This document shows positions 8,422 to 36,593 of a DNA stretch of 36,860 bases, piece after piece. The stretch's first letter is position 1. Each line of letters starts with the position of its first letter. Origin of the DNA: Pseudomonadota bacterium (GTDB lineage: Bacteria; Pseudomonadota; Gammaproteobacteria; Francisellales; Francisellaceae); contig JAQCCA010000003.1 of NCBI GenBank assembly GCA_027621155.1, positions 1-36,860 on the forward strand, read 5' to 3'. The notes under the pieces are model-generated. The model was not told the origin of the DNA and did no database searches. It saw only the letters and a list, made by a program, of their open reading frames with translations. The position numbers and the translations under genes are program-made.

Positions 8422-8637
8422 TACCCAGGCTTACAGTTATACACCGCAAACTTTTTAAGCGACTGTAATGGCAAGTATGATGAAATATACCAACCATATT
8501 GCGCTGTCTGCTTAGAAACACATGACTATCCCGATGCGCCAAATCATGCTGATTTTCCAAGTATTATCACACCGGCGCATCACTTAAGGAAACATAGCAG
8601 CCGTTATGTATTTTCAACTGCTTTAGCAAAAACATAA
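8422..8637 (+). pseudogene. galM: 3' remnant of aldose 1-epimerase (galM)
   Basis: Plus-strand reading YPGLQLYTANFLSDCNGKYDEIYQPYCAVCLETHDYPDAPNHADFPSIITPAHHLRKHSSRYVFSTALAKT* matches the GalM C-terminus (PGLQ-YT-NFL, CLE-Q-PD-PNH--FPS); in-frame stop at 8410-8412, so 5'-truncated. Confidence 0.82.
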
Positions 8638-9845
8638 TGATCGGGCACACACGTGTTTCTCCCATTTTGCAATTTCTTTAAAAAATAAAGCGCAAAGAGC
8701 GCGCCTGGAATGGACAGCAAACCACCCAAGGTAAACAATACGCCATAACCTAAATGTGCTGCTAAAAACCCACTTATGATCATGCCTGAAATATATATCA
8801 GTAATTCTGCACACACTAGCACGGTAAAGTCAGTTCCCGCCTGCTTTTTCGAGCAATACTCTGTAAATATCGTATAAAGTACAACCATCTCCATTAAGCG
8901 TGATGCCATATTTACAAGCACAACACTAAAGATCAAAACACTTGAATTGATCCCACTTAACGCAATTCCGCCTAAAGAGAAATAACATACACCACGAATA
9001 ATTGCCAACAACCCCAGCATTTTCATGCCTCCTAAGGGCTTAAATAAACAGCTTGCTGTTGTCGCACCTACTAATCCAATCACCGCAGAGCCTATACCCA
9101 TAACAATGCCAATTGTGCTTAAGGGAATCTCAAGATCGACCAAAAAAGCTGACTGCATACCCATAACCAAGCCTTCACAAGCCCGATATATCAAACAGAT
9201 TAAAAGTAACAGTTTAGTTTCTCGGCGTTTAAAAAATGCCATTAATGAAGGCTTATGCTCCTGTACTAATTCAGTGGTATTTTTATTTTCAGTGATAAAA
9301 AACATATAACAGACGATAAACACACAAAGCACTGCCAATAAAGAGGTCACCGCCTGCCAGCCAAGGGTATGGTATAACGATATCAAGAGTGCTCCGCCAA
9401 GCATACTCCCCAGTGTTGTTCCTGCTACTCTAGCAAGGTTTCCCCAATGGAAATGATCTTTATCCAACTGCTCCACTAAGAAGCCATCAATTGCAATATC
9501 CTGTGTTGCCGCAACAGCTGACAACAAAAAGGCTAATAGAAAAATGACGAGCCAATACTCTCTTGGTGTAAATAATGAAAAGATCAATAGCATTACAATC
9601 GTGACAAATTGCAACCCCATAAACCAGCTTTTTCTCTTGCCAATTCTCTTAATATAATAGCGATCGACAAAAGGTGCCCACATAAACTTCACAACCCATG
9701 GCAGCAACAATAACCCGAGCATGCCAATCATCTGTAAGGATATTCCCTCTGCCCTTAATACTGTCGGTAAAGCAAAGGTACAAAAATACAATGGAATGGC
9801 TTGCGCTAAATATAAAACGCCTAAGTTTATAAAACGCTTATTCAT
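8604..9845 (-). CDS. MFS/AmpG-like transporter, RhtX/FptX-type siderophore transporter
   Basis: About 12 TM helices; MNKRFINLGVLYLAQAIPLYFCTFALPTVLRAEG and TQDIAIDGFLVEQL resemble the RhtX/FptX/AmpG family; last gene of the siderophore operon. Confidence 0.8.
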   Translation of the reverse strand: MNKRFINLGVLYLAQAIPLYFCTFALPTVLRAEGISLQMIGMLGLLLLPWVVKFMWAPFVDRYYIKRIGKRKSWFMGLQFVTIVMLLIFSLFTPREYWLVIFLLAFLLSAVAATQDIAIDGFLVEQLDKDHFHWGNLARVAGTTLGSMLGGALLISLYHTLGWQAVTSLLAVLCVFIVCYMFFITENKNTTELVQEHKPSLMAFFKRRETKLLLLICLIYRACEGLVMGMQSAFLVDLEIPLSTIGIVMGIGSAVIGLVGATTASCLFKPLGGMKMLGLLAIIRGVCYFSLGGIALSGINSSVLIFSVVLVNMASRLMEMVVLYTIFTEYCSKKQAGTDFTVLVCAELLIYISGMIISGFLAAHLGYGVLFTLGGLLSIPGALFALYFLKKLQNGRNTCVPDHYVFAKAVENT

Positions 9846-9869
9846 CTGATACCCTCTTATGCCCGTTAT

Positions 9870-10256
9870 CTATAAACCATGTTGCTGTAGTAACTTATGC
9901 GCCTGTTGATAGGCTGTCACAACATCGCGCACTGCAATACATTGAAAAGGCATGCCTTTACGCATCGCCGGAGATTGAAGCTTTGCTATCATCGTAGGGT
10001 CTTCTGTGACACGAAACATCCCCAAGCAATATTTTGCCAGATCATTTTTGACTGTTTTAAACCACACTGCCTGTTTTTTACGAGCGTCATGCGTGAATTG
10101 ATAATGTGCTTCAAATGTACTGATCAGTAAAAAAGGTATTTTCCTTTTAAGCAAACTATCACAATCATTAAGCCAATGAATCACCTCATCATAGTGTGGA
10201 TAGTTATGAAAATGCATGCGCACAATAGGCCAATCTTGAATATCACATTGGATCAT
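9870..10256 (-). CDS. Small conserved-looking protein (128 aa) of the siderophore operon
   Basis: ORF overlapping the upstream synthetase gene by 4 nt (translational coupling); possible STAS/SpoIIAA-like fold, uncertain. Confidence 0.7.
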   Translation of the reverse strand: MIQCDIQDWPIVRMHFHNYPHYDEVIHWLNDCDSLLKRKIPFLLISTFEAHYQFTHDARKKQAVWFKTVKNDLAKYCLGMFRVTEDPTMIAKLQSPAMRKGMPFQCIAVRDVVTAYQQAHKLLQQHGL

Positions 10257-12709
10257 ATTAAGACCTCTTTTTCTGCTTTTTCTGCTTTTTCTGCTTTTTC
10301 TGCTTTTCCTACTTTTTCTACACTTCCTGTATTTATTTCATCGGTTGCATTTATTACTTGAGCTTTATCATTTTGCTTAAATTTATCAGCCTCACAGATA
10401 AAAACATATGCTGTTTTCTCAGGTAGCTGAATCTGCCCATACTTTTTGTAGCCGAGCTTCACTGTGATTTTTTCTAATGCCACAACACTAACATCTGGCT
10501 CACACAACACACGATAAGCATTTAGCTGATCAAAGCAATATGCAGTTAATGCCCGCACAATCAAATGCCCATAACCCTGCCTAATAACATGTGACTTACC
10601 GATAAGGACATGCCAACCATAATCGAATTCACCCACTGGATAATATTGTGCAATCCGATCAGCACAAGCCTTGTAAATTTCAGCATAGCCAATCTCAACA
10701 TTATTGACACTTATAATAAATAGCTGTTGATGTCCCGTTGATAATGCCTGACAAAAATGACGACTTAATTCAATTTTTGATTTAGCTAAACGCCAGTGCT
10801 TAGCAACATGCGGCTCATTCATCCAGCAATAGAGTTTATCAATATCCTGAGATAGATTTAGCGCACGTAAGCTCACACATCCTTTTGTATAATGCTTACA
10901 TGTATCCTCGTAAACTTTAGCTAAATATAATGGATTGACAAGCTGATCCGTTGGCAGCACTTTAGGTCGTGATTTGGCATCACCATAGCCTACTTCAATC
11001 ACTCGCAGACGATTTAAACACAGTTTGGCATAATGCGGCTGATACAAATCAAAGCGTTTAAAACGTTCTTTTAACTCTGGGTGCTGCTTCTGATAACTTG
11101 CAATGCATTGATGTAACTTTTGATAAAACCGAATTTCAGGATAATGTAACTTATTAGACAAGATTTCAGATAAATAGCGATAGTGCACAACAAACAAGCC
11201 CGTTTGAATAAACTGCAACAAGTAATCATCTTCAACCTGTGGAATCGCCGCCTTGACTGACAATGGCAGGCTTGCTAATTCTAGCACAGGGTTTTGGCAA
11301 ATATTAATATCATCAACAAAGTCTTTCATTGCTAGCCCAACGGGCAAGCCATTATTTAAGAGCAAAATACTATTCTCACCATGTGGTGAAAAAACCATAC
11401 CATAGCGATATAAGAAATGAAGAAGTGGCGGCACAGTATTGGCAAAGTAAGCGTTAAGCCAATCATCAAGATCAACACCACTGTGCTTGATCATCTCATG
11501 GACTAAGGCGTTGCCATATTGATCTTGATGCACTAATGACGCCATCGTGATCGCTTTTTCATGTGTCTGAAGTTTACTAGTAATGCTTTCTCGCCAAATA
11601 CCCCCTAACTGCTCGCTAAACTGATAAGGCGCGCCATCAAAGTCACTGTAAAAAGGGTGTTTAACATAAATACTAGCCAACTCCCCTAACAAAATAAAGC
11701 GACAATCCTGACTTAAGAACACATCATTTTGTGCTATCGTTTGCACCCACTCTGTTAATAGTGGCGCAACCTGAGTCTGCTTTTTAGGAAGACCGCGATA
11801 TACTGCCGTATTAAAAATACTCAATGGCAATTTAACGCTATACTTGCTACTATCTGTGGTATTAGCAAAAGTCCGAATCGATTGCATCGCAAGATAATTA
11901 TCATCTGATTCGCCTAAATAAACGATCTCATTCTTTGCCAACATACAGCTAAATTGCTGCAAAATGACATTTTGCCACTGCCATTGATGCACAGGGACGA
12001 AAACATATAAATCCGGATTAAGCCCTTGTTTTATCAATTTTTCCTTAAATTGCATGTGCATATCATCAGATAGCTCATGCTTTAATATATCCTGATAGCA
12101 CATCGATGAGACCGCGCTAAAAGTAACCTTCTCCTTAACAACCGCCAAATAGTGTAACTTTTGTACTTGTTGCATTTCTGGGGCATATAGCGCATAGTCT
12201 TTGGCATTAAAACCAATACGCCCTTTATTGATCACAAACCATGGGTGCCCGTGCATATCACCCTCAATATCAGCATAGGGCTTATGATAAATCTCTTTTG
12301 CTGAAATCCCTGAGTTTTCAAGCTTTAGCCTGATATTCATATCTGCATACAGAGTATTATTGAGCTCTTTGATAAAGTGTGCAGCGGTGATAGAATCAAT
12401 ACCCGTTAAAGCCAAGGTGTCCACCACAAATTCAATAGCATCTAGCGCAGGATCAGCTTTGCCATTGATACATTTAATAATACTACCTGAAACAATATCA
12501 AGGTTACCAAAGATGCGTTTGATCGCCTGAAATTGATAATATTGATTAGGCGCAACATCAAGTCGATAGCATTTATCATTTTGAGCATCACAAACGGGCT
12601 TGAGTAACCCCTCGTAGCTAAATTCCTCAATTATTTTTTGAAGCAATGCAGTACTTGCCTTAACATAGTGCTTTTGGTTTTGCTGATTAAACAGCTCTGC
12701 GATCATCAT
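10253..12709 (-). CDS. Fusion protein: NIS siderophore synthetase (IucA/IucC family) + C-terminal siderophore N-acetyltransferase (IucB/RhbD-like)
   Basis: N-terminal IucA/IucC signatures (HPWFVINKGRIGF, YAPE, FSPHGENSILLL, DFVDDINI); C-terminal about 180 aa resembles the siderophore acetyltransferase (MNEPHVAKHWR…GYAEIYKACADRIAQYYPVGEFDYGWHVLIG…GYGHLIVRAL). Reading frame extends to 12754, but start at 12709 (MMIAELF) has an AAGGA SD. Confidence 0.87.
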   Translation of the reverse strand: MMIAELFNQQNQKHYVKASTALLQKIIEEFSYEGLLKPVCDAQNDKCYRLDVAPNQYYQFQAIKRIFGNLDIVSGSIIKCINGKADPALDAIEFVVDTLALTGIDSITAAHFIKELNNTLYADMNIRLKLENSGISAKEIYHKPYADIEGDMHGHPWFVINKGRIGFNAKDYALYAPEMQQVQKLHYLAVVKEKVTFSAVSSMCYQDILKHELSDDMHMQFKEKLIKQGLNPDLYVFVPVHQWQWQNVILQQFSCMLAKNEIVYLGESDDNYLAMQSIRTFANTTDSSKYSVKLPLSIFNTAVYRGLPKKQTQVAPLLTEWVQTIAQNDVFLSQDCRFILLGELASIYVKHPFYSDFDGAPYQFSEQLGGIWRESITSKLQTHEKAITMASLVHQDQYGNALVHEMIKHSGVDLDDWLNAYFANTVPPLLHFLYRYGMVFSPHGENSILLLNNGLPVGLAMKDFVDDINICQNPVLELASLPLSVKAAIPQVEDDYLLQFIQTGLFVVHYRYLSEILSNKLHYPEIRFYQKLHQCIASYQKQHPELKERFKRFDLYQPHYAKLCLNRLRVIEVGYGDAKSRPKVLPTDQLVNPLYLAKVYEDTCKHYTKGCVSLRALNLSQDIDKLYCWMNEPHVAKHWRLAKSKIELSRHFCQALSTGHQQLFIISVNNVEIGYAEIYKACADRIAQYYPVGEFDYGWHVLIGKSHVIRQGYGHLIVRALTAYCFDQLNAYRVLCEPDVSVVALEKITVKLGYKKYGQIQLPEKTAYVFICEADKFKQNDKAQVINATDEINTGSVEKVGKAEKAEKAEKAEKEVLI
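10268..10321. repeat. 9-bp in-frame tandem repeat (4 perfect copies of tttttctgc plus 2 degenerate copies)
   Basis: Encodes the KAEKAEKAEKAEK tail of the fusion synthetase on the minus strand. Confidence 0.9.
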
Positions 12710-12755
12710 CTTTTTACATATCCTTTTCTTTGTTCTATACCCATCACAAGCCAAT

Positions 12756-14156
12756 TTACAGCATTTCTGCCATTGCTTCTTCGCCCTGCTTCACTTCTTT
12801 TTGTGCACTCTCTTGTGTTTTCTTTTGCTCTTTAAGATAACGTGCAGGCACGCCAAAATGCGTCAAACCATGTTGTGAGGCAAATTGATAATGTTTATAC
12901 CCAAGCAATTGATTGGCAATCAATGCACTGCGATAGGCACCAAGGGTTAAATCAGGGGCGCCAACACCATGGCTATGCATTTCAGCATTTTGTACAAAGG
13001 CACGTAACTCATGCACGTGTGCATGTTGCAGTTGATAGTTTTTATCGATCAAATAATTACCTGAATCATCAAGCGCAAAGACATCCGCCACCGTTTTTAA
13101 CCAGCACGATAAATTATCCTCATAACCCGTGGCAGCGATAATATGATCTGTTTCAACCATAAATGATTGCGCTTGATCACGTTGGTGATAATGGCATCTT
13201 AATGCTTGCTGCTGCTCACTTGAATAGCAGGGCTCAACATCAACAAGCTCGCTATTGCTAATAACTTCAAATGAGTGATCACCATATATCTTTCTTTGAT
13301 AGAGAAGCGCGTAGATTTCCTTAAGCGTCTCGCCACTAATACCTTTATGCAGCAAGCCCTGCTCAGTGACTAACTTTGCCTTTTTTTCTTTGGATAAATC
13401 ATAAAAGTAATCAATATAATCTGGTGAGAAATGCTCCAAGGCAAGTGGGGTATGCTCCATTGGGGAAAAGCTTTTGCTGCGCGTAATCCAAGTTAACTTT
13501 GTTGATATGTGCTTTGTAGACATCAAGTCTAAAAATATCTCAGCTGCACTTTGCCCTGAACCAATTAAAGTAATATGTTTTTTTGATAACAAGCTATCTT
13601 TTATATCAAGATACTGTGCACTGTGATGAATATTTTCCTTTATTTGCTGTGATGCGTCCCTTAAGGCTTGGGGTAGCTGTGGCACCGAACCCACGCCAAA
13701 GATGAGATTTTCAGTTGTCAGTTGCTTTACAAAGCCATTACCATCTTTAATCGCTACCTGCCAAATATATTTATTTTGCCGCTTTAGCACCTTAATTCTC
13801 ACTACCTCCATTGCAAAATGACAACTTGAGAGTTGTGCGATAACCCAGCGGCAATACTCATTATATTCTTTGCGTAGCATAAAAAAGCTCTCTTTAAAGA
13901 AAAACGGATAGAGCAAGCCTTGCGTTTTAAGATAATTTAAAAAACTAAAACGATTTGTCGGATCCGCCATCGTCACGAGATCCGCCATAAACGGCACCTG
14001 TAAAGTAGTTGTTGGCATCATAACTCCTGCATGCCAATTAAATTGAGCCTTTTTGTCAACAAACATACATTTTAATGACTTATCAGCTAATAGCGCGGCC
14101 AGGCTTAAATTAAATGGTCCAACACCAGCACCTATCACATCATAATGCTGCATCAT
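12756..14156 (-). CDS. L-lysine/L-ornithine/diamine N-monooxygenase (IucD/RhbE family)
   Basis: FAD motif GAGVGPFNLSLAALL, NADPH motif GSGQSAAEIFLDL, C-terminal AATGYEDNL. Confidence 0.9.
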   Translation of the reverse strand: MMQHYDVIGAGVGPFNLSLAALLADKSLKCMFVDKKAQFNWHAGVMMPTTTLQVPFMADLVTMADPTNRFSFLNYLKTQGLLYPFFFKESFFMLRKEYNEYCRWVIAQLSSCHFAMEVVRIKVLKRQNKYIWQVAIKDGNGFVKQLTTENLIFGVGSVPQLPQALRDASQQIKENIHHSAQYLDIKDSLLSKKHITLIGSGQSAAEIFLDLMSTKHISTKLTWITRSKSFSPMEHTPLALEHFSPDYIDYFYDLSKEKKAKLVTEQGLLHKGISGETLKEIYALLYQRKIYGDHSFEVISNSELVDVEPCYSSEQQQALRCHYHQRDQAQSFMVETDHIIAATGYEDNLSCWLKTVADVFALDDSGNYLIDKNYQLQHAHVHELRAFVQNAEMHSHGVGAPDLTLGAYRSALIANQLLGYKHYQFASQHGLTHFGVPARYLKEQKKTQESAQKEVKQGEEAMAEML

Positions 14157-15870
14157 ACACCTCCGCCATCAAGGGATTATTGATCTGGGTATACACTGAT
14201 TGCTGCTCTAATGGTGCTTGCAATTCGTCCAGACCGTTAAGACGCGTTAATAAGTTTGCTTTACTTGGTAGCGTCTCTGCTGTTAATAAATACTGACAAA
14301 ACCGATTGTTTGTTTGGTAAGTACTTGAGAAGCTCTCTAAAAAACAGATCACCTTATTAATTAATATTTCTTCTTCAATCTCGGCAGGAATTGCTAGAGC
14401 CTCAATAACTGCCAACAGTTGATTGACAATAAAATAATAACAAAAATGATGATCAATAAATGCTTCATTACCGTCACATAGATGAATCAACTGCTCGTTA
14501 GTGGCAACATGATGCAAATTTGGATGATCGTGAATATAGTAATAGCCCTGACTATCACGATAAAATCCCGCAACAGGTAAAGCATCTTCAAAGCGCACCA
14601 ATAAGTTCTGCTGGTGAGCCTCTAACGCTATACCGTATTCACTATAAAGCCATAACACTGGCGCAATCACACACTTAAGATAAGCATTTAGCCATTTTAC
14701 TGCTGCCTCTGGCAATGATGTTTTATCCTTTCGCGCATGATAAGCCACCATCTGATTTAAGCGGCAAATAGATTGCATCGGATGCAGACTGGTTAAACTC
14801 GCAATACAGCTAACGTCATCTTTAAGCGAGAAAGGATTATGCCGCACGATGCATATACTTGGCTCATACAACTTGGCACCCACTGTCAATCCCGCAAAAG
14901 CTGGATCTGTAATCAAAGAAAAACATGGAAATTTCCCTGCTAAAACATCCTTTAATTTGCCCCTTGCCAATACATCAACAGCGATACTGCGATAACACTC
15001 TCTTGTGGCATTAACACGCACTGAATTCGTAATCGCAATGTTAAGTGAAAATTTAAACATCACATCCACCTCTGGACTATAAACTGTGCGCACTGAGGTT
15101 GTCGCATAAAACCATGGTCCTAAAGTGCCTAAATCAAGTATTTTCCCAGCTCTAAGATATGCTTGAATCGCAGGCTGCTGCAATAGATAGCTAGCTTGCC
15201 ATGGATGAGTGACAAATAGCGTTTGACTGTCAACGAGTGTGATCCTAGGTTCGTTTTTTAAAAAGCACACAATAATTTCTGTCACTGAACGATCAAGGTT
15301 TGAGTGCATATCTATAATTGAGCAATCAACAATAAAATAATGGAGCTTAAACCCGCTTTGTGTTTCAGGTGAGTAATCAATCAGCTCTTGTTTATTAAAA
15401 CCCTCTCGCGACTTGCCATCAGGCTGTAAACGGTGCCCTAATAGATGATTTTGTTCACTTAATAGAAAATTAGACTGAACATCGAGCATATGATCGAGAC
15501 TAGACTGTCGATATGCCAAAATCGTAGCCAACTGCTCGGCGGAGTTAATAGTACGTCTTAATGTATCATCCAGATGCGTAAGTGAAATCGGCTCCGGCAA
15601 AGCCAATAAGATCAAATGAATTGCAAATAATGGGGTAATGTTTATCTGTTCATTAACCGTTTGATAACTTATTGGCAACTGCCAAGCTGGTGACTTAAGT
15701 CTTGATGACAAATGAACATTAATCAGTAAACAAGTGTTTTTTTCTTTGCATGGAATTTTTAAGCAATATTGATCATTGCTAATTTTCCTAAGCATATAAT
15801 GATATTTAAATTCACGGTAATAACAATTTAGTAAATGTTTTAAAGTCTCTTCATATGCACGCATTAGCAT
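14140..15870 (-). CDS. NIS siderophore synthetase (IucA/IucC family, RhbC/IucA-like)
   Basis: GHRLQPDGKSREGF (GHP-HP-PKSR-like), YSPE, LFVTHPWQ, QNLLVRF motifs; first gene of the operon; 17-nt overlap with the monooxygenase gene. Confidence 0.85.
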   Translation of the reverse strand: MLMRAYEETLKHLLNCYYREFKYHYMLRKISNDQYCLKIPCKEKNTCLLINVHLSSRLKSPAWQLPISYQTVNEQINITPLFAIHLILLALPEPISLTHLDDTLRRTINSAEQLATILAYRQSSLDHMLDVQSNFLLSEQNHLLGHRLQPDGKSREGFNKQELIDYSPETQSGFKLHYFIVDCSIIDMHSNLDRSVTEIIVCFLKNEPRITLVDSQTLFVTHPWQASYLLQQPAIQAYLRAGKILDLGTLGPWFYATTSVRTVYSPEVDVMFKFSLNIAITNSVRVNATRECYRSIAVDVLARGKLKDVLAGKFPCFSLITDPAFAGLTVGAKLYEPSICIVRHNPFSLKDDVSCIASLTSLHPMQSICRLNQMVAYHARKDKTSLPEAAVKWLNAYLKCVIAPVLWLYSEYGIALEAHQQNLLVRFEDALPVAGFYRDSQGYYYIHDHPNLHHVATNEQLIHLCDGNEAFIDHHFCYYFIVNQLLAVIEALAIPAEIEEEILINKVICFLESFSSTYQTNNRFCQYLLTAETLPSKANLLTRLNGLDELQAPLEQQSVYTQINNPLMAEVYDAAL

Positions 15871-20480: not shown

Positions 20481-21983
20481 CTATTTTACAAAATATTCTT
20501 TAATAACATTATCTTCCCAATCATTTGGTGTGATATTGAGATTATAATCACCCCAGCCATGCCCTGTACTCCAAGCTGTCCAGCCAACAAAACCATAACC
20601 GTTTGTCTCAGTATACGCATGTGATTTCATATACGCTAAGAAGTCACCTAATGGTTTAGCGCAGCTAGCTTGATCCTTCCCTACGCCAAACTCAGTAACT
20701 ATTGCTTTAAATTTATTAGCCTTTAAGTAACTGACAAAAGCATCTAAGTTAAAGCCATTGTCACCTGTTGTTGTAATATCTTGTAAGCACTGATCATGCG
20801 TACCACTAAAATCACTATCTAAGTATTGATGCACATTGATAATTACTTGATTATCCAAAACTTCGCTACTGACACCCGCATTAAGAAAATTTTGACGCGT
20901 AAAGACTATTGCATTGCCGGCAGCATCCCAACTATGCAAGCCTGAAAAGTGAACACCTTCAACTAACAATTTACCTTTAAATCCCATACCTGTGAGGCTC
21001 TTAATAACGGCAACTTCCATATCAAATGCTTGTTGAGCTGTTAAGCTTTCTCCAGAAGCCGCTGATGGTTCATTCACTAAATCAAACATTAAATATTGCT
21101 CATTAATAGCAGGATCTTGCTTAATAGCACTGTATAACTTATTCCAGATATTGACATAATATTTTGGATCTGTGACTAAACTCCCTTGTGGACATTGCCC
21201 CTGCCCTGTACAACCAGCAACCTCACTACCTATTGTGCCGTAATGCATATAGCTATGTAGATCTACAATAGCGTAATATTTATGTGATGTAATTGTTGCT
21301 AATGTTGGTGCCACTAAATAATCCTGAAATGCTGTTTGATTATTAGAACTATTAATATCTTGATACCCATATGGCTGCAAATATGCCCAGCGCACTGGCA
21401 CACGAATAGTATTTGCTCCTTGATTTAAAAATTCAATGGTTGGCTTGTTATCCGCCCCATCATCAGATAAATCAGGAATAACACTGGCATTTGGCATTGT
21501 TGAGAATTCAAGCCCCGATAAATTAATACCTGTATACCAATCATCTGTTACTCGAGTATTAGTTGGGAAGCTGCTACCTGCGGGTAATATTTTAGTAAAA
21601 GCAACTTTACCATTAAATACATTATTGGTAATACTATAATCTGTTAGCTGAATATGTGAGTTGTCGGCAGGCTTATATTTAACATCACTACCACTTACAT
21701 CTAACCAACCTAAATAAATATCACTATCTGCGCATCCCCCTAAACGTAATGAAGCACCAAAATAGTATTTATTACCACTAATTGCGTTCGGGTCAAACTT
21801 TTCTCCATGCTTCCATTCAGTAAATTTACCGTCTGAATCTTTAACACATAAAAGTGGCTGCTGTGCTTGTGGCAATAAGGTTTCATCATACAAGCCGCTG
21901 ATATTATTTGTCATCATTGCAGCAAAACTATGACTTGCAGCTAAAACAGTTGCAATGGCTATTCCTTTGGCTAAAAATTTCAT
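20481..21983 (-). CDS. Secreted glycoside hydrolase family 5 endoglucanase (GH5_5-like) with an N-terminal extension
   Basis: Signal peptide MKFLAKGIAIATVLAASHSFAA; GINLSGLEF, ANTIRVPVRWAYLQP, DLVNEPSA (acid/base Glu), VHQYLDSDFSGTHDQC, IVTEFGVG (nucleophile Glu), GFVGWTAW; SD AGGAGA. Confidence 0.9.
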   Translation of the reverse strand: MKFLAKGIAIATVLAASHSFAAMMTNNISGLYDETLLPQAQQPLLCVKDSDGKFTEWKHGEKFDPNAISGNKYYFGASLRLGGCADSDIYLGWLDVSGSDVKYKPADNSHIQLTDYSITNNVFNGKVAFTKILPAGSSFPTNTRVTDDWYTGINLSGLEFSTMPNASVIPDLSDDGADNKPTIEFLNQGANTIRVPVRWAYLQPYGYQDINSSNNQTAFQDYLVAPTLATITSHKYYAIVDLHSYMHYGTIGSEVAGCTGQGQCPQGSLVTDPKYYVNIWNKLYSAIKQDPAINEQYLMFDLVNEPSAASGESLTAQQAFDMEVAVIKSLTGMGFKGKLLVEGVHFSGLHSWDAAGNAIVFTRQNFLNAGVSSEVLDNQVIINVHQYLDSDFSGTHDQCLQDITTTGDNGFNLDAFVSYLKANKFKAIVTEFGVGKDQASCAKPLGDFLAYMKSHAYTETNGYGFVGWTAWSTGHGWGDYNLNITPNDWEDNVIKEYFVK

Positions 21984-27987: not shown

Positions 27988-29430
27988 TTATATAGCATCT
28001 TGCATTATTTTCTCAATCGCAGAAATCGCTTTTGCAACATTAGCAACTGCCGTACCACCCATGGCTGTTTTGCTATTCACTGCTGAGTCAATGCTTAATA
28101 TTTGATAAACATCGTTATCAATCATCACTGAAAAATGCTGAAACTCAGAGAGCGTTAAATCAGTTAATGACTTATTTTCACTTAAAGCATACGCGGTAAT
28201 TTCTCCGACGATATGATGCGCTTTTCTAAAGGCAATACCTTTTTTAGAGAGATAATCAGCAAGCTCCGTTGCCACACAAAAACTACCATCATAGTTTTTA
28301 TCTTTATTTATCGCTAAGCTTTCAACAGTTATCGTTGTTACTTTCAGTAAGTCACTCACGGTATCAACGGCTGCAAAGAGCGCCTCTTTGTCCTCTTGCA
28401 GATCTTTGTTATACCCCGATGGCAAGGCTTTAACGGTTGTTAATAGTGCAACTAAATAGCCATTTAAACGTCCTGCTTTACCACGAACCAACTCCATCGC
28501 ATCAGGGTTTTTCTTCTGCGGCATGAGTGATGAACCTGTCGTGACTAAATCACTCATTTCAACCAAGTCAAACTCAGTCGTTGAATAGATAATCATATCC
28601 TCAGCAAAGCGACTTAAATGTGTCCCAATAAGGCTAATCGCAGATAATAGTTCAATAATGTAATCGCGATCACTCACTGCATCTAGGCTATTTTGGGCAA
28701 TTTCATTAAACCCTAACGCATCTGCCATTTTTTGGCGATCTAATGCCCAAGCATTGCCAGCAATCGCCCCCATACCTAAAGGCGAGACATTAACGCGTTT
28801 TTTAATATCAATAAGTCTCTCATAATCGCGTTTAAGCATCTCATAAAAAGATAAGAAATAATGTCCCCAAGTGATTGGTTGCGCTTGTTGCAAATGGGTA
28901 TAACCCATCACAAACGCATCAATATTTGCTTTAGCTTGCGCGACAAAAGCTGCTTGCAAGGCTTTAATCAAATCACATAAATGCTCAATATGCTCAAGCA
29001 CCCATAACCTTGTTGCACAAGAGACCTGTTCATTGCGCGATCTTCCAGTATTGGCTTTATAGGCAAGATCACCTATTTTATCCACCAGTGATTGCTCAAC
29101 AAAGGTATGAATATCTTCAACACCATCATTGATTGCCTGCTGAATAAGATACGGATTATCATTAACCTCATGCTCGATCTCTGCTAAGGCTTGATGTAAC
29201 GCCTGTAACTCGCTATCAGATAAAACATTGATATCGCATAGTGCTTCCGTAAACGCTTTTGTTGCTTTGATATCATAAGGGAGCAGCCGATAATCAAAAC
29301 TCAATGATTCATTAAAGCGTACAAACAAGGGATTATTATCATCGCTAAAACGCCCACCCCAGAGTTTTTGTTTTCTTTGCATTTCTAAGCCATTACTTTG
29401 TTGCATTAATTTATCTGTTACTTCTGCCAT
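27988..29430 (-). CDS. argH: Argininosuccinate lyase
   Basis: KLWGGRF, TGRSRNEQV, GSSLMPQKKNPDAMELVRGK; 13-nt overlap with the upstream argE-like gene. Confidence 0.96.
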   Translation of the reverse strand: MAEVTDKLMQQSNGLEMQRKQKLWGGRFSDDNNPLFVRFNESLSFDYRLLPYDIKATKAFTEALCDINVLSDSELQALHQALAEIEHEVNDNPYLIQQAINDGVEDIHTFVEQSLVDKIGDLAYKANTGRSRNEQVSCATRLWVLEHIEHLCDLIKALQAAFVAQAKANIDAFVMGYTHLQQAQPITWGHYFLSFYEMLKRDYERLIDIKKRVNVSPLGMGAIAGNAWALDRQKMADALGFNEIAQNSLDAVSDRDYIIELLSAISLIGTHLSRFAEDMIIYSTTEFDLVEMSDLVTTGSSLMPQKKNPDAMELVRGKAGRLNGYLVALLTTVKALPSGYNKDLQEDKEALFAAVDTVSDLLKVTTITVESLAINKDKNYDGSFCVATELADYLSKKGIAFRKAHHIVGEITAYALSENKSLTDLTLSEFQHFSVMIDNDVYQILSIDSAVNSKTAMGGTAVANVAKAISAIEKIMQDAI

Positions 29431-30536
29431 GGCTTATCCTTTAATTCATTAAAAAATGTGATAAAAAATAGAACTCCCTCGTTGATTTGCTCTACATAAA
29501 TAAATTCATCGGTACTGTGGGAGCGCTTTGAATCTCCTGGTGAGAACTTAACACTTGGACAATTCACAATTGCCTGATCTGACGTCGTTGGAGAACCATA
29601 ACTATTGATACCTTTTGCTAATAATGCTTGCATTAATGGATGATCAAGTGGCGTTTTACTGGGCTTAATACGTAGTGATGTAGGTGTAATTTCTGATGCC
29701 ATATACTGGCGCATAATATGCAGTACATCCTCATTGCCATAGGCATCAGTCGATCTAACATCAACAACAAAATGACATTTTTCAGGGACAACATTGTGCT
29801 TTACGCCAGCGTTGATCATCGTCACACTCATTTTCACATCACCCAATGTCTCTGAAGTTTGTGCAAAATGATAATTATTAATCCAATTGATATCTTCAAC
29901 AGCTTTTAATATTGCATTATCTCCTTCATTGCGTGCAGCGTGTCCCGTCTTGCCATGGGCGACACAATCACAAACCATTAAACCCTTTTCGCTAATCGCA
30001 AGCTCCATGCTCGTCGGCTCACCAACGATCGCAAAATCAATAGCATCAAAAAATGTTAGCGCCAACTCAGCACCATTTCGCCCTGAGATCTCCTCTTCCG
30101 CAGCCGCGCATAGCAACAGATTAAAAGGTAAATCTGCCCTTTGATAAAAATAACTAAAAGTCGCTACCATACTCACCAATGCGCCACCGGCATCATTGGA
30201 TCCCAATCCATATAACTTACCATCAATAATTTCAGCACTATAAGGATCACGGGTATAGCTCTTACTCGGTGGCACAGTATCGTGATGCGAAATCAGTAAA
30301 ACAGACGGTTTATTATCATCAAAATATTTATTTTTAGCACACACATTATTACCAACTAAAGTACTAGTAATACCGCGTTCAAACAGCCATTGTTGAATAA
30401 ATGCCGCACTTTGTGCCTCGTCTTTTGAAATCGATGGAATTTCAATTAAACACTTCAGTAATTCCAAGGCTTCCGCTTGTTTATGTGTTATATCTTCAAT
30501 CAACACATCAGAATGCATACTTATATCATTTATCAT
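29418..30536 (-). CDS. M20 deacylase, ArgE-like (predicted N-succinyl/N-acetyl-citrulline or -ornithine deacylase)
   Basis: LLISHHDTVP, LYGLGSNDAGGALVSM, EEEISGRNGAE, IVGEPTSMELAISEKGLM; resembles the Bacteroidetes operonic ArgE. Confidence 0.85.
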   Translation of the reverse strand: MINDISMHSDVLIEDITHKQAEALELLKCLIEIPSISKDEAQSAAFIQQWLFERGITSTLVGNNVCAKNKYFDDNKPSVLLISHHDTVPPSKSYTRDPYSAEIIDGKLYGLGSNDAGGALVSMVATFSYFYQRADLPFNLLLCAAAEEEISGRNGAELALTFFDAIDFAIVGEPTSMELAISEKGLMVCDCVAHGKTGHAARNEGDNAILKAVEDINWINNYHFAQTSETLGDVKMSVTMINAGVKHNVVPEKCHFVVDVRSTDAYGNEDVLHIMRQYMASEITPTSLRIKPSKTPLDHPLMQALLAKGINSYGSPTTSDQAIVNCPSVKFSPGDSKRSHSTDEFIYVEQINEGVLFFITFFNELKDKPWQK

Positions 30537-31367
30537 CTAGTGCACCTCCTCTGCCAATCTGATTGTCGTTACTTTAGCTTTCTCACCTTGCAAGGTATGA
30601 GCAATATTATCCGCATTACTAATTACCACTTGATTAACGTTAGAAGCTAGCGCGTCAAAGCAATTCTCAAGCTTAACCAACATGCCTTGTTGGATCTTGC
30701 CTTTTGTTTTTAAATGTTGATAGACATTTAAATCTAAGGCTTCAATCAATGAATGTGGATTAGCAATATCCTCATAAACCCCTGCTAAATCCATACAGTA
30801 ATATAAATTAACCTGATATTGATGCGCTAAGGCTTTTGCGATTTCATATGCTACTGTGTCAGCATTGGTATTTAAAAGCTGCCCATTACCATCATGCGTA
30901 ATCGGTGCAATGACAGGTAAAAAGTCATTATTGATCAAATCAATTAATACATTACGATTAACTGCTTTAACATCACCAACAAAGCCAAAGTCATGCATCT
31001 GAGCTTCACGCTTGTTACTTAGTAGCAAATCAGCATCGACACCACTTAGCCCCAATGCATTAACACCATAAGCTTGCAACTTAGCAACTATTTGTTTATT
31101 GATAACTCCGGCTAGCATCATCGTTACAAGATCTAATGACGCTTTATCAGTCACACGCCGACCATTAATAAAGGTAGATTCAACACCTAGACGCTCGGCT
31201 AACTCGCTAACTTGATCGCCTCCGCCATGCACGATAACGCATGGATCACTTTGCTGTGAAATAGCATGTAATAATCCATTGAGCTTACTGTCATCATCGA
31301 TTACACGCCCACCTATTTTGATGATATTAAGCGTTTTATGCAACTTCATCGGCATAGACCTTTGCAT
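30537..31367 (-). CDS. argB: N-acetyl/N-succinyl-glutamate kinase
   Basis: LNIIKIGGRVIDD, VIVHGGG, NGRRVTDKASLDLVTMMLAG, LSGVDADLL. Real start possibly MKLHKTLN (31349). Confidence 0.92.
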   Translation of the reverse strand: MQRSMPMKLHKTLNIIKIGGRVIDDDSKLNGLLHAISQQSDPCVIVHGGGDQVSELAERLGVESTFINGRRVTDKASLDLVTMMLAGVINKQIVAKLQAYGVNALGLSGVDADLLLSNKREAQMHDFGFVGDVKAVNRNVLIDLINNDFLPVIAPITHDGNGQLLNTNADTVAYEIAKALAHQYQVNLYYCMDLAGVYEDIANPHSLIEALDLNVYQHLKTKGKIQQGMLVKLENCFDALASNVNQVVISNADNIAHTLQGEKAKVTTIRLAEEVH

Positions 31368-32349
31368 TTAATAATGGTGCTTTTGACGTTTGTAGCTTTA
31401 AAGTTTTAACAAGTTCGGATAGCACATATTGCGCGGCATAGAGTCGATTCTCAGCTTGCTCAATAACAATTGAGCATTCAGAATCAAGCACGTCATCAGC
31501 GATCACAAGATTGCGTCTCACGGGCAAGCAATGCATCACCTTGGCATTGGGGGCATTTTTTAGCTTTTCTTGAGTAATCATCCACTTGTCATCGGCATTG
31601 ATCACCTTGCCGTATTCTTTAGTGCTTGACCAATTTTTGACATAGATAAAATCGGCATCTTTAAACGCCTCATCCTGGTCATATATCACTTGAGCATCAC
31701 CGATAAATTCTGAATCCAATTCATAGCCTTCAGGATGTGTCACTACAAACTCATAATCCATCAATTGCATACCTTCAGCAAACGAATTTGCTACTGCATG
31801 TGGCAAGGGATTAACATGTGGCGCCCAGCTTAACACAACTTTTGGTTTTTTAGGATAATCTGGCTTTTTATGCTCTTCAATCGTTAGTATATCAGCCAGA
31901 CTTTGCAAAGGGTGACGCAAGGCTGATTCTAAATTCACTATTGGACAATCCGTATATTTTTTAAATGCATTAAAAATTTGCTCTTGATAATCTTGCTCTT
32001 TGTCATTGAGCTTGGCAAAGGAGCGAATTGCGACAATGTCACAATAACTTGCAATAACTTGGGCGGCCTCTTTGATATGCTCAGGTTTATCAGTATTCAT
32101 CACCACACCTTCGTTAAACTCCAGTGCCCAACCATTATTCACATCAATTGGTAATACATTTAAACCAATATTTTGTGCCGCTTTTATCGTTGAGATTTTA
32201 GTGCGTAAACTTGGATGTAAAAAAATAATGCCTAAAGTTTTATGTGCACCTAATTTATCATTCGCATATGGATTTTGCTTAATCTCAATACATGATTGAA
32301 TCGCTTCTTGGATATTATCAATATCCTTAATACTTAAATACTGCTGCAT
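31336..32349 (-). CDS. argF': N-succinylornithine carbamoyltransferase-type transcarbamylase (ArgF', SOTCase/AOTCase subfamily)
   Basis: FLHPSLRTKISTIKAA, NEGVVMNTDKPEHIKEA, RHPLQSLADILTIEE, WAPHVNPLPHAVANSFAE, HCLPVRRN; much closer to recalled B. fragilis SOTCase than to canonical OTCase. Confidence 0.87.
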   Translation of the reverse strand: MQQYLSIKDIDNIQEAIQSCIEIKQNPYANDKLGAHKTLGIIFLHPSLRTKISTIKAAQNIGLNVLPIDVNNGWALEFNEGVVMNTDKPEHIKEAAQVIASYCDIVAIRSFAKLNDKEQDYQEQIFNAFKKYTDCPIVNLESALRHPLQSLADILTIEEHKKPDYPKKPKVVLSWAPHVNPLPHAVANSFAEGMQLMDYEFVVTHPEGYELDSEFIGDAQVIYDQDEAFKDADFIYVKNWSSTKEYGKVINADDKWMITQEKLKNAPNAKVMHCLPVRRNLVIADDVLDSECSIVIEQAENRLYAAQYVLSELVKTLKLQTSKAPLLNAKVYADEVA

Positions 32350-32395: not shown

Positions 32396-32577
32396 GTTGG
32401 CTGAGCGTTAGTCGAAGCCCTTACATTTGCGTTGGCTGAGCATGAGTCGAAGCCATTACAAATGTTACCCCTCACCCGCGCAGCCCAAGCTGCACGAGCA
32501 ATCCCGCAAGGGGAGAGGTGCCAGTTGATGAAGCTTATGCTGTCTTATTATTAGACTATCCTTCGACTTTGCTCAAG
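32396..32577. repeat. Dispersed inverted-repeat element, copy B (compound, within the arg operon)
   Basis: Two direct copies gttggctgagcgttagtcgaagcc (32396) and gttggctgagcatgagtcgaagcc (32431), inverted ccttcgactttgctcaagg near 32559-32577; internal CCCCTCACCC…GGGGAGAGG. Confidence 0.78.
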
Positions 32578-33731
32578 GTGCGGTTAACACTTTTAGATGA
32601 GTGTTCAGCTGCAATCACTTCTTTTAATACCAAAATAAATGCATCAATATGCGATTGCTGAATCGTCAGTGCAGGCAGTAATCTCATCACTTGTCCGGCT
32701 TGAGCAACACCTGTAAATATATACTTTTGCTTTAAAAGTGCATCACGAAGCGCTTTGCAATCTAAACTAAATTCAACACCTAGCATAAGCCCACGCCCCC
32801 GTACAACTGTTACTTCAGGGATTTGTAGTAATTGCTCTTTTAAATACTCCCCTTGGTGCTTGGCATTATCAATAAGCGCTTCATCGTCAATGACTTCAAG
32901 CACAGCTAACATCGCAGCACAGGCAAGATAACTACCACCAAAAGTTGTGCCTAACATATTTTTCAATACCGGGATATTATCTTTGATCAACACCCCGCCA
33001 ACAGGAAAACCATTACCCGCCCCCTTGGCAAAGGTAATTAAATCCGGTTCAATGCCTGATTGCTGGAAACTAAAAAACTCCCCTGTGCGTCCGAAGCCAG
33101 ATTGAATCTCATCAACGATTAACTTTGAACCGTGCGATTGAGATAACTCACTTGCAGTCTGTAGAAAATGTATATCCGGTTCATAGATGCCGGCAATGCC
33201 TTGAACCCCTTCAATAATCACCGCTGCGACGTCATTATCCATCGCTTCTTTCAATGCATCTATATCATTTAACGGCACACTAATGACTTGAAAACCATTT
33301 GAAAATGGTGACTGTATAGCAGGATTATCAGTAACTGCCAAGGCAAGATTTGTGCGCCCATGAAAGCTATTACTAATGCTAATTATCTTGTTACGTTGAG
33401 TGACAACTCCGGCAAGTTTAAGCGCATTTTCTACCGCTTCCGCCCCTGAATTAACTAGAAATAACTGGTAATTATCACAAGCACTTAACTGTGCCAATTT
33501 ATCTGCCAGATGTTGCTGCATCGGCATCTCAACACTATTGGAATAAAAGCCAATATATTGCAACTGTTGAGTGAGTTTCTCAATATAATGCGGATGACTA
33601 TGCCCAATCGAGATCACCGCATGCCCACCGTATAGATCAAGATATTGTTGAGCATTTTCATCCCAAACATATAAATCTTGAGCTTTATTTAATGTAATAG
33701 GATAACGCTCATATACTTCATATAAATTCAT
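32556..33731 (-). CDS. argD: Acetylornithine/succinylornithine aminotransferase
   Basis: LYGGHAVISIGHSHP, NSGAEAVENALKLA, VDEIQSGFGRTG, TFAKGAGNGFPVG (PLP Lys). Confidence 0.95.
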   Translation of the reverse strand: MNLYEVYERYPITLNKAQDLYVWDENAQQYLDLYGGHAVISIGHSHPHYIEKLTQQLQYIGFYSNSVEMPMQQHLADKLAQLSACDNYQLFLVNSGAEAVENALKLAGVVTQRNKIISISNSFHGRTNLALAVTDNPAIQSPFSNGFQVISVPLNDIDALKEAMDNDVAAVIIEGVQGIAGIYEPDIHFLQTASELSQSHGSKLIVDEIQSGFGRTGEFFSFQQSGIEPDLITFAKGAGNGFPVGGVLIKDNIPVLKNMLGTTFGGSYLACAAMLAVLEVIDDEALIDNAKHQGEYLKEQLLQIPEVTVVRGRGLMLGVEFSLDCKALRDALLKQKYIFTGVAQAGQVMRLLPALTIQQSHIDAFILVLKEVIAAEHSSKSVNRTLSKVEG

Positions 33732-33740
33732 AAAATCACC

Positions 33741-34712
33741 TTAAAAAACACTGGCTTTGAGTGACAAACCTGACTCACAAGGCAAGCCAAACATAAGATT
33801 CATATTCTGTAGAGCTTGCCCTGAAGCCCCTTTAATCAAGTTATCAATGACACTGACAACATGCAGATACTCACCATGTTTTTTCACGGATAATAAACAA
33901 GCATTAGTATTAACAACCATTTTTAAATCTGGTTCATGGTCAAGTACTTTGACAAAGGCACTTTGCTCGTAAAATGCTTGCAAAATTTGTTGTGCCTTTA
34001 TTTCAGTGAGATCTGATTTAAAGTAAATTGAGGCAAAAATACCACGACTAAAATTCCCTCGCATTGGCACAAATAATATTTGATTGTTTGCTGATAATTT
34101 CAACGCTTGCTTAATTTCAGCTAGATGCTGATGCGAGAATGCTTTATAGACAGACATATTATTGCTGCGCCAGCTAAAGTGTGAAGTTCCACTGGGCATC
34201 ACACCGGCTCCGGTTGAGCCGGTAATGGCATTGATATGAACATCTCCATCAACATAATGACAAAAAGGCATTAATGCCAGAATAATAGTAGTCGCAAAGC
34301 AACCAGGATTAGCAATCTTAGATGCAACTGCAATCTCACTTTGCTTAATATCCGCCAAACCATAGACAAACTCTGGATTTGCCTGAGTATCTCGATGATC
34401 CTGACTTAAATCAATTATCTTAGTCCCCTGCTTGAATTGTTGGGATTTAAGCACTTCTTTGGCTTGCCCGTGCCCCACACATAAAAACACAACATCGACA
34501 TTATAATTTATCTCTTTATCGAATACGCGTTTATTATCGACCAGATAGAAATCATGATGGGTTTTAGCGATTAACTCACCGGCTTGTGAGGTACTATGTA
34601 TGAATTGAATATCCACCTGCGGGTGATATGTAAGTAGTCGCAAAAGCTCACCTGCGGTATAACCCGCACCGCCTAAAATACCGACCTTTATTTTTTTGTT
34701 ATGCTCGATCAT
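33741..34712 (-). CDS. argC: N-acetyl-gamma-glutamyl-phosphate reductase
   Basis: KVGILGGAGYTAGELLRLL, NPGCFATTIILAL, GLPCESGL C-terminus. Confidence 0.95.
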   Translation of the reverse strand: MIEHNKKIKVGILGGAGYTAGELLRLLTYHPQVDIQFIHSTSQAGELIAKTHHDFYLVDNKRVFDKEINYNVDVVFLCVGHGQAKEVLKSQQFKQGTKIIDLSQDHRDTQANPEFVYGLADIKQSEIAVASKIANPGCFATTIILALMPFCHYVDGDVHINAITGSTGAGVMPSGTSHFSWRSNNMSVYKAFSHQHLAEIKQALKLSANNQILFVPMRGNFSRGIFASIYFKSDLTEIKAQQILQAFYEQSAFVKVLDHEPDLKMVVNTNACLLSVKKHGEYLHVVSVIDNLIKGASGQALQNMNLMFGLPCESGLSLKASVF

Positions 34713-34718
34713 AAAACC

Positions 34719-36593
34719 TCACCCTGTCACCGCTGCTTTGATTGAGCTTAATTGCGTTGTCTTGACTGACTTATCTTTATTTTGCAATTGATAATAAGCA
34801 GCAAGTTGTGTGCTCATCACCTTAGTAAATCCTTTGACATCATCACCACTGAAACTTGCATTTTCCTCACCATATTTGGCATTTTGCGCCTGCATTAAAT
34901 CATGGTCAGACTGTATACCCAACAGTACGAAATGAAGTGGATAAAGCTTCACAAATACATCTCCTGTGACCTTTCCCTGAGTCGATAATAACAAGGCTTC
35001 AATATCACGCGCCGCCGGATCAAGAAATTGTCCTTCATGCACCATCTCAGCATAGGTATCACTTAAGCTTGTTTTAATTTTAAGCTGTGCTTTAGTTAAC
35101 ACATGCTTTTCTAATAAGTGATGTGCCTTTATCAGAATCAACGGTGCAGGGGCTTCAAAACCTACCCGCCCTTTGATATTGATAATAGTGTCACCAACAT
35201 GAATGTCGCGTCCAATACCATATTGACTGGCAAGATCGTTAAGCTTCTGAATCACTTGAATTGAATTTGATAACTCGTCATTTAAGGCAATTGGCTCACC
35301 ATTGATAAAGGTAATCTTTAGCGTTTCTTCTTCCTCTTGCGCTTTAGCTATCTTAGTTGGCCAAGCCTCATCATTTAGATATAAATGTGAACTTAAGGTC
35401 TCAGCACCGCCAACAGAGGTGCCCCATAAGCCTTTATTAATCGAATAGTTTTTGCTACTTTCGCTGCAACTTGCACCATGCTTGATCAGATATTCCTGAG
35501 TAGCAGCACGCGATAATTTCAAATCTCGAATGGGCGTGATAATTTGAGCTTCTGGAGATAATATATGAAACATCAGATCAAAGCGCACTTGATCATTGCC
35601 GGCTCCCGTGCAGCCATGTGCAATCTTAGTGATCCCCATCGTATTTGCTACCTTGGCAATCGTCATTGCTTGAAAAGCACGCTCAGCACTGACAGATAAA
35701 GGATAACAATTATTTTTTAGTGCATTAGCAAAGATCAGAAACTTAACACACTCCTGATAAAAATCTTTTGTGACGTCAATGCTTTGATGCGTTTTCGCAC
35801 CCAGCTGATAAGCCCTGCGTTCAATCTGTGCTAACTCAATTGGGGTAAAACCACCCGTATTAACAGTCACAGTATGCACTTCTAGATCATGCTCCTGCTG
35901 TAAATACTTAACACAGAAGCTTGTATCCAACCCTCCACTAAACGCGACAATAACCTTCATTGATTGCTCCCTTTTATTATTTTTATTACCTTTATTATTT
36001 TGTAATATACCTTGCTCTTTTTGCTCTTGCTGTTCTTTTTGCTTTTGTTTTCTTTGCGGATCGTACAGCATCCCTGTGCATAAACAATTTTGATATTCTT
36101 TGGCTTGCAAAATAGTAAAGTTTACGCAACTCGCACATCCCTGCCAAAATGTCTTATCTGTCGTTAAGCCAGTAAAGGCAGCCGGCTCATAACCCAACTC
36201 ATAATTAATACGCATCACCTGCGGATTAGTCGTTAACCCAAAGATCTTGGCATTAGGATAATATTCACGCGCTAACATAAATGCTTTTAACTTTAAGGCT
36301 TTGGATAAACCTAAGTTGCGATATTCTGGGAAAACAATTAAGCCTGAATTAGACACATAAGCTTTGTCTTGCCATGATTCAATATAACAAAAGCCTACGA
36401 TTTGATTAAGTAAGCGATCAATCGCAATAACTGCATGTTTTGAGCGTATTTTTTCCTGCAAATAGTTCACACTGCGCTTGGCAATACCGGTCTTTCTTTG
36501 CTTAGCACTTTCTTCAATCTGTACGGCAATGGCACTGGCAAAATGGCAATGCGTACTATTAGCAATAACAATGTCGACATGACTTAGCTTCAT
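34719..36593 (-). CDS. argG: In-frame GNAT N-acyltransferase (N-terminal) + argininosuccinate synthase (C-terminal); ArgG may also start internally at 35960
   Basis: GNAT features (IVFPEYRNLGLSKALKLKAF) in about aa 1-180; Lys/Gln/Glu/Asn-rich linker; MKVIVAFSGGLDTSFCVKYL (ArgG N-terminus) preceded by GGGAG 6 nt before an internal ATG at 35960. No stop between the parts. Confidence 0.88.
   Translation of the reverse strand: MKLSHVDIVIANSTHCHFASAIAVQIEESAKQRKTGIAKRSVNYLQEKIRSKHAVIAIDRLLNQIVGFCYIESWQDKAYVSNSGLIVFPEYRNLGLSKALKLKAFMLAREYYPNAKIFGLTTNPQVMRINYELGYEPAAFTGLTTDKTFWQGCASCVNFTILQAKEYQNCLCTGMLYDPQRKQKQKEQQEQKEQGILQNNKGNKNNKREQSMKVIVAFSGGLDTSFCVKYLQQEHDLEVHTVTVNTGGFTPIELAQIERRAYQLGAKTHQSIDVTKDFYQECVKFLIFANALKNNCYPLSVSAERAFQAMTIAKVANTMGITKIAHGCTGAGNDQVRFDLMFHILSPEAQIITPIRDLKLSRAATQEYLIKHGASCSESSKNYSINKGLWGTSVGGAETLSSHLYLNDEAWPTKIAKAQEEEETLKITFINGEPIALNDELSNSIQVIQKLNDLASQYGIGRDIHVGDTIINIKGRVGFEAPAPLILIKAHHLLEKHVLTKAQLKIKTSLSDTYAEMVHEGQFLDPAARDIEALLLSTQGKVTGDVFVKLYPLHFVLLGIQSDHDLMQAQNAKYGEENASFSGDDVKGFTKVMSTQLAAYYQLQNKDKSVKTTQLSSIKAAVTG

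Follow-up and report, generated by a model that had tools for sequence, protein, structure and literature searches.

Which substrate does the transcarbamylase encoded at positions 31336-32349 of this stretch use, and in what version of arginine synthesis? The stretch, referred to here as the window, comprises 36,860 nt of contig JAQCCA010000003.1 from a gammaproteobacterium of the family Francisellaceae. The gene lies on the minus strand as an intact open reading frame of 337 aa with an ATG start at 32349; a plus-strand reading of the same interval was ruled out, its translation being full of stops. The initial annotation had set the protein apart from canonical ornithine carbamoyltransferases (OTCases) and predicted, from a DKPEH motif, that it acts on N-succinyl-L-ornithine. 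Our best reading, to which we assign a probability of roughly 0.75, is that the gene product is an anabolic, knotted N-succinyl-L-ornithine transcarbamylase (SOTCase) working within a Bacteroidota-type succinyl arginine operon, a gene block shared through ancient lateral transfer.

The best PDB match of the protein was the Bacteroides fragilis SOTCase (1JS1; E = 2e-102, ~50% identity, collinear over residues 1-317), with lesser matches to the N-acetylornithine transcarbamylase (AOTCase) of Xanthomonas campestris (~1e-47) and to the best OTCase (2e-23). Among NCBIfam models the nearest curated one was the AOTCase model NF003384 (269.8 bits, below its cut-off of 288), and no SOTCase model appeared among the matches. 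The transcarbamylase motifs SLRT, HPLQ and HCLP are present, and the motifs quoted in the initial annotation were found in the translation (HKTLGIIF, SLRTK, KAAQNIGLNV, DKPEH, RSFAK, RHPLQS, WAPHVNPLPHAVANSFAE and HCLPVRRN). The likeness to the B. fragilis enzyme claimed there held along the collinear region, except that one quoted stretch differs, reading WAPHPRPLPQAV in B. fragilis and WAPHVNPLPHAV in the window, with Arg178 replaced by Asn. The carbamoyl-phosphate loop, as had been noticed, ends in SLRTK rather than SLRTR; this lysine occurs in 9/9 members of the host family, and arginine occupies the position in B. fragilis and in 80/80 FCB loci (in all our counts, FCB stands for Bacteroidota plus one Balneola).

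We used 14 FCB relatives to build an AlphaFold2 model (mean pLDDT 86, with the 80's loop poorly defined at pLDDT < 50). Its top fold match was 2fg6, the SOTCase with N-succinyl-norvaline bound (TM 0.87/0.91), and AOTCase entries came next. Shared with the B. fragilis structures (1JS1, 2FG6, 2FG7) are the knotted-type fold match, the proline-rich loop and an extended 80's loop carrying a Trp, although this last loop is one residue shorter in the window protein. Judged by the WAPHVNPLPHAV loop, Trp75 and the matches of the predicted model to knotted SOTCase and AOTCase entries, the protein is predicted to be a knotted-type transcarbamylase. AOTCase is likewise a knotted enzyme acting on N-acylornithine, which the model matches at TM ~0.8, but its identity to the window protein is only ~30%.

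Three positions discriminate the two enzymes, being Glu92, Asn185 and Lys302 in AOTCase as opposed to A/S/P/V/Q, P and V/I/E in SOTCase (PMC4581275). In the window protein they are Pro, Pro and Val, all SOTCase-like, and all three SOTCase-type residues occur together in 73/80 FCB loci. The contact residues W75, P90, F112, E142, H176, P181, K236, R278 and V282 (B. fragilis numbering) are kept; Val at 282 replaces the Ile of B. fragilis, a change allowed in SOTCases. The exception is position 178, which together with His176 and Arg278 is reported to anchor the succinyl group (PMC4581275). It is Asn in 6/6 genomes of the host genus and Lys in three related genera of the family; in the 80 FCB loci it is Lys in 64 and Arg in 16, and thus basic in 80/80. 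Since Lys is the commonest residue in the FCB loci, Arg itself is not required there, and since AOTCases also carry Lys at this position, a charge at 178 is not a succinyl-specific mark. The neutral and unusual Asn178 nevertheless lowers our confidence in the exact substrate.

The DKPEH motif does place Pro at position 90, as the initial annotation had read it, and this residue is SOTCase-like; as a predictor of specificity it proved not to be decisive when taken alone. Position 90 was non-Glu in 10/14 other gammaproteobacterial knotted transcarbamylases sampled, with Ala, Val or Pro in its place, and the full AOTCase triad was found in only 4. Because SOTCase-like residues occur in such enzymes, the Pro motif by itself is weak evidence of succinyl use, and it is therefore the tree and the operon that carry the succinyl conclusion. 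A set of these gammaproteobacterial enzymes (loci L121, L122, L124, L126 and L128) combines non-Glu90 with Pro181 and Glu/Val282, which would qualify them as SOTCases under the published rule, but forms separate clades. Its members are probably N-acylornithine transcarbamylases that have been under-recognised and whose acyl specificity is uncertain. The natural series of Pro, Ala and Ser at position 90 and of Arg, Lys and Asn at position 178 in close enzymes offers a ready test of the residues that set acyl specificity.

In a maximum-likelihood tree, the window protein grouped with those of five congeners and three further genera (support 100/99), and these host-family proteins fell into an exclusive group with the FCB SOTCases, including that of B. 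fragilis (100/100). Xanthomonas-type AOTCases, the other gammaproteobacterial knotted enzymes and the OTCases (100/99) were all placed apart, which bears out the prediction of a SOTCase. The 80 best matches among GTDB genomes, at 50-57% identity, were from Bacteroidota except for the one Balneola. Within the host genus, the SOTCase is 90-95% identical in five other genomes, and it is 65-69% identical in three other genera; a search of the remaining genomes in even samples of 369 from the class and 399 from the phylum turned up nothing comparable. This distribution strongly indicates lateral transfer between Bacteroidota and the host family. A first reading, with the host family nested in Bacteroidota beside Flavobacteriaceae (89/81), was dropped after AU tests, which did not reject the FCB sequences as one clade (p = 0.53 for the single gene, p = 0.57 for six concatenated proteins). 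The tests are compatible with host-family SOTCases lying within the FCB clade as well as sister to it, and a transfer from Bacteroidota to the host family is thus suggested by parsimony only and is not a result of the tree.

The SOTCase gene is the fourth of seven in a minus-strand cluster ordered GNAT-ArgG fusion, argC, argD, SOTCase, argB, M20 hydrolase, argH, which we infer to be co-transcribed as an operon. The fusion (34719-36593, 624 aa) is followed by argC (33741-34712, 323 aa; N-acyl-gamma-glutamyl-phosphate reductase, TIGR01850 at 281.6 bits, cut-off 233.6), whose median identity is 50% to FCB loci vs 30% to those same-family genomes that carry ArgJ and OTCase. Next come argD (32556-33731, 391 aa; N-acylornithine aminotransferase, TIGR00707 at 355.6 bits, below the cut-off of 410; median identity 50% to FCB) and, beyond the SOTCase, argB (30537-31367, 276 aa; N-acylglutamate kinase, TIGR00761 at 197.9 bits, cut-off 151.3; median 44% to FCB), whose first 32 nt are shared with the end of the SOTCase gene. 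A 372-aa M20 deacylase (29418-30536; Peptidase_M20 and M20_dimer), a candidate N-succinylcitrulline desuccinylase, has a median identity of ~50% to the M20 protein that holds the corresponding place in FCB loci. Altogether, GNAT, ArgG, ArgC, ArgD, ArgB and M20 show median identities of 44-55% to FCB genes, above the other sources compared. Each step that handles an acylated intermediate has its gene in this one Bacteroidota-like cluster. The terminal argH (27988-29430, 480 aa; argininosuccinate lyase, TIGR00838 at 561 bits) is of proteobacterial type, with a median identity of 31% to FCB-cluster ArgH vs 43-48% to gammaproteobacterial ArgH; FCB clusters have an argH of their own in this slot. 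The cluster is therefore a mosaic. Its gene order (GNAT-argG-argC-argD-SOTC-argB-M20-argH) is common to many Bacteroidota loci, for example L040, L050 and L058. In congener G003 and the three other genera argD is missing from the cluster, and the nearest aminotransferases there are only 33-38% identical.

The first gene of the cluster comprises a GNAT domain (~residues 1-179; a weak GNAT match), a Lys/Glu/Gln-rich linker and an argininosuccinate synthase (NCBIfam and Pfam ArgG matches at ~210-604). Its halves are ~51% (GNAT) and ~55% (ArgG) identical to the products of adjacent separate genes in Bacteroidota; a PDB sequence search with the GNAT returned weak, general GNAT matches only. A single open frame (586-630 codons) spans GNAT and ArgG in 9/9 host-family genomes with these genes (four genera; the others are L133-L140). 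In none of the 61 FCB loci with both genes was there such a fusion; the genes there are distinct, and their matched parts lie 38-810 nt apart. In the fused proteins the linker between the matched parts ranges from 3 to 29 residues; because its length varies yet the frame stays open throughout, we argue for selection on the fusion.

At the junction (35958-35975, minus strand), a Shine-Dalgarno-like AAAAGGGAG precedes the in-frame ATG of ArgG, a possible internal start; the window sequence before ArgG reads AAAAGGGAGCAATCA-ATG. Its pairing with the anti-Shine-Dalgarno sequence, -7.6 kcal/mol in the window and in three congeners, is reached by ~1.3% of synonymous recodings. One more genome has a weaker pairing, reached by 2.3% of recodings, and the remaining genomes were not significant. 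Both fused and free ArgG may be made. We tentatively propose, at somewhat less than even odds, a bifunctional enzyme combining N-succinylglutamate synthase (the first step) with argininosuccinate synthase (the next-to-last), with a retained ribosome-binding site and start that would also give free ArgG; it would have been kept in four genera together with a Bacteroidota-type succinyl pathway replacing the ArgJ/OTCase route of another genus of the same family. In a limited literature search we found no published description of a GNAT-ArgG fusion. An ArgH-ArgA bifunctional fusion also exists (NCBIfam PRK12308). The NAGS-NAGK of X. campestris is a further bifunctional arginine-pathway fusion (PMC1865377). 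In all of these an acylglutamate synthase domain is covalently joined to another arginine enzyme, but in the host family the GNAT is of the ArgA2/BT3761 type and the partner is ArgG. By tying an ArgA2-type GNAT to an arginine enzyme, the fusion supports N-succinylglutamate synthase as the predicted role of the GNAT.

Besides the SOTCase-like protein, the only transcarbamylase of the genome is the aspartate carbamoyltransferase PyrB, so that the separate canonical argF for which the initial annotation advised a search is absent. ArgJ is lacking from 9/9 genomes carrying the SOTCase, and none of the 14 genomes examined has a classical ArgA (NAGS) gene above cut-off; a second small amino-acid kinase of the host genome was considered as a NAGS and rejected, being an aspartokinase. 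The genome is a draft that is 90% complete, and these absences therefore lean on its sister genomes, which are 95-99% complete. The SOTCase block is conserved in six genomes of the host genus and in three further genera. Another genus of the same family (L142 and L143; genomes G009, G013 and G022) has ArgJ and an ordinary OTCase, and a third genus (g3) has neither ArgJ nor OTCase. Judging by gene content, there are two variants of the arginine route within the family.

In Bacteroidota, succinyl use is supported biochemically, and the GNAT and M20 proteins are implicated genetically (PMC7311316, PMC9026213). B. fragilis ArgB is an N-succinylglutamate kinase, and mutant fitness data tie the GNAT BT3761 and the M20 protein BT3549 of B. 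thetaiotaomicron to arginine synthesis, as probable N-succinylglutamate synthase and probable N-succinylcitrulline desuccinylase, respectively (PMC7311316); a second study likewise predicted the GNAT to act as ArgA2 (PMC9026213). The window encodes the same enzyme set as this pathway (BT3758-BT3761, BT3717 and BT3549; GapMind), in an order found in many Bacteroidota, but in a gammaproteobacterial host, with the GNAT fused to ArgG and an argH of proteobacterial type. Because gene order and identity give this same set, the transcarbamylase most likely carbamoylates N-succinylornithine, and succinyl is the best reading of the acyl group from sequence class, gene order and homology. By comparison with the FCB-cluster GNATs at the same place (~51%), the window GNAT is a probable N-succinylglutamate synthase of the ArgA2/BT3761 type. 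The GNAT half of the fusion would thus form N-succinylglutamate, which ArgB, ArgC and ArgD would convert to N-succinylornithine; the SOTCase would combine this with carbamoyl phosphate to yield N-succinylcitrulline and phosphate, the M20 hydrolase would strip off succinate, and ArgG and ArgH would complete arginine. The genome has carA, so carbamoyl phosphate is probably made. The block would have been shared with Bacteroidota by ancient lateral transfer, its terminal argH being proteobacterial in origin. Weighing against this reading, the GNAT and M20 roles rest on homology to enzymes assigned by genetics.

The most direct competitor is a Xanthomonas-type AOTCase in an operon working on acetylated intermediates. 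AOTCase is indeed the nearest NCBIfam model, and loss of the basic residue at 178 could weaken succinyl-group binding, but Glu92, Asn185 and Lys302 are all absent, Xanthomonas-type AOTCases fall into a clade of their own, and the neighbouring genes correspond to those of Bacteroidota succinyl-pathway loci. Single-residue work, as cited in PMC7311316, found the succinyl substrate to be preferred when residue 90 is Ser, Pro, Ala or Val. We regard this competitor as unlikely. The same Asn178, present in 6/6 members of the genus and in no other SOTCase examined, could instead mean that the host-genus enzyme has drifted towards looser acyl specificity or another acyl group, in an otherwise SOTCase-like pocket. 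His176, Arg278, Lys236, Glu142, Trp75 and Phe112 are all retained, however, the Lys of AOTCases shows that charge at 178 is not confined to succinyl enzymes, and the remaining operon would need to follow, making such drift quite improbable.

That Bacteroidota-like arg genes lie inside an otherwise gammaproteobacterial genome bin might also suggest that the contig or the arg block is contamination from a Bacteroidota. This is very improbable, since the gammaproteobacterial-type argH directly adjoins the block on the same contig, the block recurs in the five other genus genomes and the three other genera, GC is flat (37-43%) across the window, and the fusion is absent from the 61 FCB loci compared. 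As to an ordinary argF, Pfam OTCace domains do match, as they do in all transcarbamylases, but OTCase models score the protein at 134-157 bits (cut-offs 281-306; TIGR00658, ArgF, at 134 against 281), OTCases lack both the proline-rich loop and Trp75, and their clade is separate; we give this possibility almost no weight, and the claim that the ORF is not a canonical OTCase stands.

Elsewhere in the window, a likely siderophore locus (8604-15870) includes a fusion of an IucA/IucC-type synthetase with a GNAT (10253-12754), a lysine/ornithine-type N-monooxygenase (12756-14156; nearest to a histamine N-monooxygenase model, below cut-off), a second IucA/IucC synthetase (14140-15870), an MFS transporter and a 128-aa protein without a Pfam match. 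A glycosyl hydrolase family 5 (cellulase) protein with an apparent signal peptide (20481-21983) stands alone amid housekeeping genes.

The succinyl arginine route has been documented for Bacteroidota and has suffered misannotation in databases (PMC7311316); we found no report of it in the host's family. Its use by a gammaproteobacterial family would show that the complete route passes from phylum to phylum as one block. Automatic annotation would label such bacteria as acetyl-pathway users or as auxotrophs.
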